From the NCBI GenBank assembly GCA_020072655.1, contig JAIQGH010000042.1, positions 1-32,071 on the forward strand: DNA of 32,071 nt, written 5' to 3'. A program made the position numbers and the translations under genes. Shown here in pieces: positions 11,323-25,929 of the stretch. The DNA comes from Terriglobia bacterium (GTDB lineage: Bacteria > Acidobacteriota > Terriglobia > UBA7540). The first letter of the stretch is position 1, and each line of letters begins with the position of its first letter. The notes beneath the pieces are model-generated. The model searched no databases. It was not told the DNA's origin and was given only the letters and a program-made list of their open reading frames with translations.

Positions 11323-11361
11323 AGTTGACGACAATTGAATACGTGATTCAGTGACCCTGAA

Positions 11362-11470
11362 TCTCATCCAGAGTGGCTGAGGGACGGGCCCAAAGACGCC
11401 ACGACAACCGGCCGCCGAAGGTAAGGGCGGTGCTGGTGCCAACTCCCGCCCGGTATAGGGGAAGATGAGA
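11362..11470 (+). ncRNA. SAM-I (S-box) riboswitch aptamer
   Basis: The closing helix P1 pairs CTCATC (11363-11368) with GATGAG (11464-11469). The S-box consensus is present in order: the kink-turn core GAGTGGCTGAGGGAC (11371-11385), GGGCCC and the ACGACAACC segment (11401-11409), GGTGCTGGTGCCAACTCC (11429-11446), and the terminal GAAGATGAGA. The element senses S-adenosylmethionine. When SAM is bound, P1 is stable and the downstream terminator forms. When it is not, GAGAGG (11467-11472) can pair with CCTCTT (11492-11497) in the terminator's 5' arm, giving an antiterminator. It controls the thrC-metY-metX-metW unit. Confidence 0.93.
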
Positions 11471-11487
11471 GGGGCAAGCAGGATTTG

Positions 11488-23227: not shown

Positions 23228-23911
23228 TCACAACCATTGGTGCCGACTCGAGTAAAACGTCACCGGGCGGTCGGGGTATTTCTTCTTGAAGGCTTTGAAT
23301 TGCCGGAGAATCGCTTGATACCGCTGGTCGGAGGTCGTCAGCTTCTGGTGGGGCATCTTGATGAGGGCGCGCTCGACCGCCCGTACACTCCGTCGTGAGA
23401 GCCGCCAATCGCAGCGCCGGAGCGAACGCAGATCGAAGACGCCATAACCCTTGATGCGGCCCGAGCCATCCACATAAGGGTCGACGTAGCTCATCACCAA
23501 TTGACGCAGCGTGCGGAAAACGGGCTTGCGTCCGTGCAGGCCGGCATCGCGCGACCGGGCGACGGTGCCGTAGCGTCCGCGGTGCCGGAAGAGGAAGAGA
23601 ACGTGGTCGAGCAGGTCCTGCGATTCGAGGTCAAGCAACAACGGCGGATAACCGTGCTGCTCCAGGATGGTCGCCGCCGTCAGTGCCCCCTCCAGACAAT
23701 GCGCCTGCCAGTGTCGCACGACACCGCGAAAGGTTCGCAGCGTTTCACCCTGCTTCTCCCAGTTGTAAGGGAGCGCGCGCAGGAACTGCTGTACCTGGTG
23801 CGGCGTGCGATACCGCTCGATGACCGCCCACTCTTTGGGAGTAAAAGCCTCGCGGCCCGGCGGGGGAGGAAATTGCGCCGGGGGATTGCGCCCTTTGTGC
23901 TTTGGCTTCAT
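23228..23911 (-). CDS. Uncharacterised protein with conserved-looking Cys/His
   Basis: The 227-residue product has no signal peptide. The start at 23911 (ATG) is chosen over a GTG at 23950, which would add 13 residues; neither has a clear ribosome-binding site. The N-terminus is Pro-rich (PPAQFPPPPGREAF). The middle reads HWQAHCLEGALTAATILEQ (Cys72), then LLLDLESQDLLDHVLFLF (His103), then GRYGTVARSRD. A Cys on a helix followed by His on a strand is the layout of transglutaminase-like cysteine proteases, so that fold is possible. The rest is Arg-rich and basic. The stop is 26 bases from the end of the convergent broken hydrolase. Function is unknown. Confidence 0.65.
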   Translation of the reverse strand: MKPKHKGRNPPAQFPPPPGREAFTPKEWAVIERYRTPHQVQQFLRALPYNWEKQGETLRTFRGVVRHWQAHCLEGALTAATILEQHGYPPLLLDLESQDLLDHVLFLFRHRGRYGTVARSRDAGLHGRKPVFRTLRQLVMSYVDPYVDGSGRIKGYGVFDLRSLRRCDWRLSRRSVRAVERALIKMPHQKLTTSDQRYQAILRQFKAFKKKYPDRPVTFYSSRHQWL

Positions 23912-23962
23912 CTGATATCTGGAATTTGATATTTCAACGAGGATCTTCACGGGCCAACAGAT

Positions 23963-25510: not shown

Positions 25511-25656
25511 TTCAATTCCGGATTTCCATTTGGAATTCACGATGGAGTGGGAACATACCCCCAACCACTTCTCAATGCAATCGTCAGCCGGGTTCTGAGC
25601 GTTCGTGGAGTCGCGCACCCTGACGCGTCGGGGTATGCGACCCAGAGTTGCAGCGG

Positions 25657-25694
25657 GTAGCGCAGAGGCACGCGTACTTTGCGTCCCTCTGCGG
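25657..25694 (+). repeat. GTAG-headed palindrome, cluster copy B0
   Basis: GTAG (25657-25660) directly precedes CGCAGAGG (25661-25668), which pairs with CCTCTGCG (25686-25693). A C/C mismatch (25669/25685) follows, then an inner stem ACGC / GCGT. It is inverted relative to copies B1-B3. Confidence 0.6.
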
Positions 25695-25754
25695 CTTTTC
25701 TTTACGCCCGCGTGCGCAGAAGTCACTGGCCGATTTTCTATTCAGAACAAGTGC

Positions 25755-25791
25755 CGCAGAGGAGGGCCAACTGCGCCCACCTCTGCGCTAC
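25755..25791 (-). repeat. GTAG-headed palindrome, cluster copy B1
   Basis: Minus-strand GTAG (25788-25791) heads a hairpin with outer arms CGCAGAGG / CCTCTGCG, an A/A mismatch (25763/25779) on the plus-strand reading, and inner GGG / CCC. It lies in a 46-bp unit (25751-25796) repeated in tandem with one change. Confidence 0.7.
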
Positions 25792-25800
25792 CTGCTGTGC

Positions 25801-25837
25801 CGCAGAGGAGGGCCAACTGCGCCCACCTCTGCGCTAC
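25801..25837 (-). repeat. GTAG-headed palindrome, cluster copy B2
   Basis: This is an exact copy of B1 displaced by 46 bases; the 46-bp units differ only at one position after the hairpin. The tandem identity points to recent local duplication. Confidence 0.7.
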
Positions 25838-25854
25838 CCGCTACCTCCCAGAGC

Positions 25855-25891
25855 CGCGGAGGAAGGCAAACCGCGCCTACCTCCGCGCTAC
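25855..25891 (-). repeat. GTAG-headed palindrome, diverged cluster copy B3
   Basis: Outer arms are CGCGGAGG / CCTCCGCG and inner arms AGG / CCT. Relative to B1, both arm changes are compensated (A-T to G-C, G-C to A-T). The A/A mismatch is kept (25863/25879) and GTAG is intact (25888-25891). A short tandem of CTTGATC-type heptamers follows at about 25902-25930. Apart from these repeats nothing is seen in the 419-base gap 25511-25929. Confidence 0.65.
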
Positions 25892-25929
25892 TTGGTGTGT
25901 GCTTGATCCTTGATCCTGAATCCTTGATC

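Follow-up and report, generated by a model that had tools for sequence, protein, structure and literature searches.

Results

The window, by which we mean the whole 32,071-nt stretch of DNA that was analysed, contains four hairpins headed by GTAG (B0 to B3, window 25657-25891). They lie in the 25511-25929 gap between an amidohydrolase gene and an asparagine synthase (asnB-like) gene (Table 1). In all four, GTAG leads straight into a perfect 8-bp outer stem; a mismatch separates this from a 4-bp inner stem, which is closed by a 7-nt loop. This confirms an earlier description made from the letters alone (the sequence-only reading), which had GTAG at the foot of an 8-bp outer stem, an internal mismatch and a short inner stem. 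The mismatch had been read as A/A three times and C/C once; this is borne out, B0 having C/C and B1 to B3 having A/A on the forward strand, which is T/T on the strand that carries the tag. B0 is inverted with respect to the others and keeps their geometry with a different inner stem (ACGC/GCGT), and B1 and B2 are indeed tandem duplicates. B3 is 80% identical to this tandem pair, and the two compensated stem differences attributed to it can be located: an outer A-T pair has become G-C and the G-C pair at the foot of the inner stem has become A-T. The B3 hairpin is identical to hairpins at C60:28723 and C159:4245.

Table 1. Features of the hairpin cluster and its neighbourhood in the window
Feature	Position	Strand	Description
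Amidohydrolase gene	start ~25510	-	
Further palindrome, left of B0	25611-25646		resembles the GTGG-CGCATACCCCGAC..GTCGGGGTGTGCG hairpins around the C159 PEHFH-type RAYT
REP B0	25657-25693	+	GTAG-CGCAGAGG-c-ACGC-gtacttt-GCGT-c-CCTCTGCG; left arm of REPIN-like doublet; conserved edge AGCGG from 25652
REPIN spacer	25694-25754		between B0 and B1
REP B1	25755-25791	-	GTAG-CGCAGAGG-t-GGGC-gcagttg-GCCC-t-CCTCTGCG; right arm of REPIN-like doublet; edge AGCAG
REP B2	25801-25837	-	tandem copy of B1, 46-bp period, 98% identical
REP B3	25855-25891	-	third subtype, GTAG-CGCGGAGG-t-AGGC-gcggttt-GCCT-t-CCTCCGCG
Asparagine synthase (asnB-like) gene	end 25930	-	cluster just behind its 3' end

GTAG followed by eight Watson-Crick pairs occurs four times in the window, always inside the cluster. 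In 200 dinucleotide shuffles of the window the same pattern had a mean of 0.035 and a maximum of 2, and there were never two within 250 bp. Counting the 12-mer GTAGCGCNGAGG alone in the window, at up to 2 mismatches, gives no clear excess over chance, so the evidence rests on the tag plus the stem. An Rfam scan of the window gave no known family at the hairpins and elsewhere only a tRNA and a SAM riboswitch, which is at 11361-11471 upstream of a row of methionine/threonine biosynthesis genes.

An exact search of the 4.36-Mb genome located the family at 10 places. The genome-wide covariance-model search that the sequence-only reading had proposed yielded 11 strong matches, which score 55-76 bits and all keep one fold. 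About 20 weaker matches represent sister families (beta, GTAGCGCRGACC..; delta, GTAGCGCAGAGTT..). The window family has three subtypes, with inner stem ACGC, with GGGC, and with AGGC and the CGCGGAGG outer stem. Dozens of sister-family hairpins occur in the genome, and they share its foot, AGCGG-GTAG-CGC...GCG-GCTCT. When the sister families are aligned on GTAG, their common edges are an AGCGG that precedes the tag and a GCTCT that follows the stem; beyond these edges there is almost no conservation in the large families. GTAG is unpaired at the stem foot in all the genome copies aligned. CGTC REPs, TIRYT inverted repeats and class 3 CnGA hairpins were considered and rejected, as the aligned family copies are all tagged GTAG. 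The window cluster is intergenic; other genome copies are overlapped by open frames and may or may not lie between genes.

The stem pairs of the aligned copies are standard pairs in 99.1% of cases and include nine double changes, a level that none of 500 shuffles reached; slid-stem controls gave no double changes at all. The mismatch is open (not Watson-Crick) in all but 2 of 81 copies (56 distinct hairpins, all genomes), while its letters vary, being mostly T/T but also C/T and C/C. Selection on structure had been suggested, and stem changes are indeed compensated and the fold kept. What the moving enzyme requires could account for the retained fold, which on its own is no proof of a host function.

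The four palindromes are all real but they are not independent, as B0 and B1 form an inverted doublet of the REPIN type to which extra REPs have been added. The doublet has an ACGC arm in forward orientation, a spacer and a GGGC arm in reverse, and the same doublet with a homologous spacer is found at two other loci, which makes three in all (C10, C177 and C108). The window spacer is identical at 47 of 54 bases to that of the C177:25485-25699 doublet and can be aligned to that of C108:4038-4239; the side next to the right arm is conserved and the internal part is shortened. B0+B1 is a REPIN, and at least three loci of the genome have probably received it as a unit. Local tandem duplication of B1 gave B2, and B3 is a member of a separate, singly occurring subtype. 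By eye, the doublet spacer seemed to derive from a RAYT gene's 3' end, but this was rejected, as the similarity of the spacers to known RAYT genes was not significant against shuffles.

The REP block at C177 is a 688-bp intergenic mosaic of delta, window-family and beta hairpins (L021 1433-2120). At the orthologous site of a relative, G003, it is replaced by 11 bp between flanks that are 75-77% identical. The block absent from G003 holds several REP families and not one doublet alone. A candidate empty site for the window cluster itself, in relative G001, was rejected: there is no clean junction because the asnB-like gene adjoins another gene and the amidohydrolase gene is absent. Directly beside the asnB-like gene of G001 there is a gene similar to window 23228-23950, which encodes a conserved protein of 240 aa whose match to Vasohibin is weak and falls below the cut-off.

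A search for RAYT (TnpA-REP) genes had also been proposed, and there are five in the genome over the curated NCBIfam cut-off (NF047646), plus pieces of others. The RAYTs at C164 and C33 and their relatives have the motifs DHWH and Y[IVM]HxNP, and the two H-W-H RAYTs of this genome carry sister hairpin types. Among the 209 contigs of the genome (96% complete) we found no RAYT with the window's hairpin family on both sides. The C159 RAYT, with a family copy about 950 bp away, was rejected as the cognate enzyme since its clade is PEHFH and the palindromes around it are of the GTGG-CGCATACCCCGAC type. In this region of C159 (L017 2588-3485) the gene has GTGG-CGCATACCCCGAC..GTCGGGGTGTGCG palindromes on its two sides, and a portion of its 5' end, together with the palindrome, is duplicated upstream. 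Hairpins of the type GTAG-CCACGRYGAGCG..CTCGYCGTGG, which flank the H-W-H RAYTs of L205 and L197, also occur in the genome studied here (L017 2588-2619 and 4349-4379).

The association was measured in 35 RAYT domains from this genome and its relatives, 22 of them H-W-H (one with the first H changed to Y, and four missed by the motif pattern and added by hand) and 13 others. GTAG hairpins lie within 200 bp on both sides of 16 of the 22 H-W-H RAYTs but of only 1 of the 13 others (Fisher p = 0.0003); for at least one side the counts are 18/22 and 4/13 (Fisher p = 0.004). On the RAYT tree, the product of a short search, seven REP stem types need six changes, which is the least possible, against a mean of 10.5 and a minimum of 9 in 300 shuffles; the types were assigned by hand, L107 being typed beta by its nearer hairpin with a window-family hairpin about 100 bp further out. 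The H-W-H group itself needs two changes on this tree because of two long branches.

In a relative, the Acidobacteria MAG YP4.bin42 (L119, L094), hairpins of the window family bound a RAYT gene, with a GGGC arm before the gene and an ACGC arm behind it. The proposal that GTAG plus an imperfect hairpin marks a REP moved by a RAYT is supported, with pairing to the exact family in relatives only. The unit is about 609 bp long and has the ends GCGGGTAG...CTACCCGC. About eight copies of it or its parts are present, 90-97% identical, in unrelated flanks and several of them internally deleted. Four lie in one 5.3-kb contig, three complete (338-344 bp) and one cut by the contig end. The nuclease motif of the full-length unit is mutated to PDYWH, so that its RAYT is probably no longer active; DHWH is read in a further copy that a contig end truncates. 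In the genome studied here, contig C138 carries a copy of the C164 REP-RAYT-REP unit that is 87% identical and has internal deletions, and the homology begins at the REP edge. The units lack tnpB, and their listed ends show no evident target-site duplication.

A scan of about 85,000 species genomes for GTAGCGCRGAGG-N8-20-CCTCYGCGG matched 44 stretches, 37 of which are in about 15 Acidobacteriota MAGs. The remaining seven are single matches in scattered taxa, possibly due to chance. The family model run over 41 genomes (this one and relatives) had matches in nine, all of the same family. G006 (Acidobacteria MAG YP5.bin2, 98% complete; L076-L081) has 47 copies, some in arrays (C38:122926-125237), and two profiles found no Y1 transposase gene in it. 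The G006 hairpins are an orphan REP population, which indicates that copies can outlive their enzyme. Further copies in the genome and in relatives, RAYT genes and an excess of GTAG-headed palindromes, on which the sequence-only reading had made its proposal depend, were all found.

Discussion

On the sequence evidence (the elements and their families, the doublet with its homologous spacer, the block missing from a relative, RAYT flanking and co-divergence, and the multicopy units), the cluster very probably consists of GTAG-tagged REP elements of a RAYT (TnpA-REP) system in soil Acidobacteriota, with B0+B1 a doublet copied as a unit. Such elements had been taken to occur mainly in Proteobacteria. 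This matches the literature, but hosts of GTAG REPs also include Cyanobacteria, Chloroflexi and PVC, with only TIRYT-type transposases listed for Acidobacteria (Di Nocera et al., 2013; PMC3733652). Our search of the open-access literature on RAYT/REP found no description of GTAG REPs in Acidobacteria; of the papers that it brought up only the surveys of 2013 (PMC3733652) and 2018 (PMC6006769) are relevant, and for this phylum they mention TIRYTs and class 3 enzymes.

The elements resemble the GTAG REP superfamily (PMC3733652) in the unpaired GTAG at the foot of a palindromic stem (5-13 bp in the superfamily), in alternative complementary stem bases and in their clusters, inverted dimers and RAYT association; they differ in that the conserved part reaches AGCGG before GTAG and GCTCT after the stem. 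The doublet is like the REPINs of Pseudomonas fluorescens, in which an inverted REP doublet with its spacer spreads as a unit (Bertels & Rainey, 2011; PMC3116915), but its arms differ in inner stem (ACGC versus GGGC) and only three family doublets were seen in the genome. GTAG with a mismatch-interrupted stem is shared with E. coli REP and TnpA-REP group 2, where C|T cutting needs an unpaired state and not a particular base (PMC8266576), and the variety of T/T, C/T and C/C found here fits this requirement. In contrast with that group, there is a single mismatch after 8 bp and the RAYT motif is H-W-H, which is outside the class 2 list of middle residues (L, V, I, F, Y and M, with W absent; PMC6006769). 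The HUH-Y1 enzyme, the hairpin ends with a guide tetranucleotide and the multicopy units and deletion derivatives of YP4.bin42 recall IS200/IS605, but here both ends are inverted GTAG REPs, the motif is Y-x-x-NP (class 2) and not Y-x-x-x-Q, and tnpB is lacking.

We infer enzyme activity, strand, cut site and an H-W-H RAYT as mover of the window copies, and these would work together as follows. When the region becomes single-stranded, each palindrome would fold on the strand that carries GTAG. GTAG would serve an H-W-H RAYT as the guide, and the hairpin, unpaired position included, as the structure to be recognized; the enzyme would cut at a nearby C|T, GCTCT being conserved just 3' of the hairpin. 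If two GTAG-headed ends were then joined, whatever lies between convergent REPs would move. This may be the RAYT gene (a REP-RAYT-REP unit of about 610-700 bp) or a gene-less miniature derivative. The mover of the window copies may have been an H-W-H RAYT that was formerly present, one that is unassembled, or a sister type acting in trans.

It is possible, although we lean against it, that the hairpins are dead relics, once mobile and now decaying, which recombination or slippage has multiplied locally in a species with no active RAYT of this type left. This is compatible with their identity as REPs and concerns present activity only. It would account for B1/B2 being a plain tandem duplication, for a genome in which no RAYT is flanked by the window family, and for G006, with its 47 copies and no Y1 gene found. 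Against it, nearly all copies retain an intact fold, tag and mismatch, the genome has two H-W-H RAYTs with an intact DHWH motif, and the C177 block is absent from the relative's site.

REPs elsewhere are known to affect mRNA ends, and the hairpins occupy the 25511-25929 gap just past the 3' end of the asnB-like gene, so they could be host regulatory structures, that is, terminators or mRNA-stabilizing 3' structures of this upstream gene on the reverse strand. We consider this very unlikely. A terminator scan gave no terminator-like site, and a terminator needs neither an invariant GTAG nor a conserved mismatch. These hairpins also turn up elsewhere, at unrelated loci, in either orientation and beside RAYT genes; G001 has an asnB-like gene without them. 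A MITE of a DDE insertion sequence, which the 145-220-bp doublets with inverted ends bring to mind, or another hairpin repeat merely resembling REPs (integron attC, CRISPR or ERIC-like) can hardly be right given that no target-site duplication is evident at the listed unit ends, that the arms differ in inner stem and loop, that RAYT genes encoding an HUH nuclease motif lie between the same arms and that Rfam has no family for the hairpins.

To return to REPs moved by a RAYT, such systems have been described as domesticated, single-copy and no longer self-moving (PMC2817692; PMC3116915; PMC6006769): RAYTs are single-copy genes that show none of the mobility of an IS (PMC2817692; PMC3116915), and movement of a REPtron as one unit is not apparent (PMC6006769). 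The copies in YP4.bin42 and at C138 point the other way and suggest that RAYTs of this group are multicopy and IS-like, contrary to the reported state. Recombination between REPs may possibly account for some unit copies, and the limits of MAG assembly apply. We put the chances at about even that the H-W-H RAYT branch, as yet unclassified, is undomesticated and spreads as a REP-bounded, IS-like unit, that its deletion derivatives become REPINs and REPs, the window cluster included, and that in one bacterial family RAYT lineages have repeatedly split in step with their REP stem types.

The kind of element is already known and ordinary and will interest REP specialists; the notable addition is the IS-like spread of RAYT units. 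The family is new, in a phylum for which our literature search brought up no GTAG REPs, and its RAYT branch, likewise without a description in the papers found, looks self-mobile. With several co-diverged RAYT/REP pairs in one family, the rules of recognition (mismatch, stem and guide) could be compared. Taken together, the multicopy REP-RAYT-REP units, their deletion derivatives and the gene-less REPINs would form a natural series from insertion sequence to REPIN.
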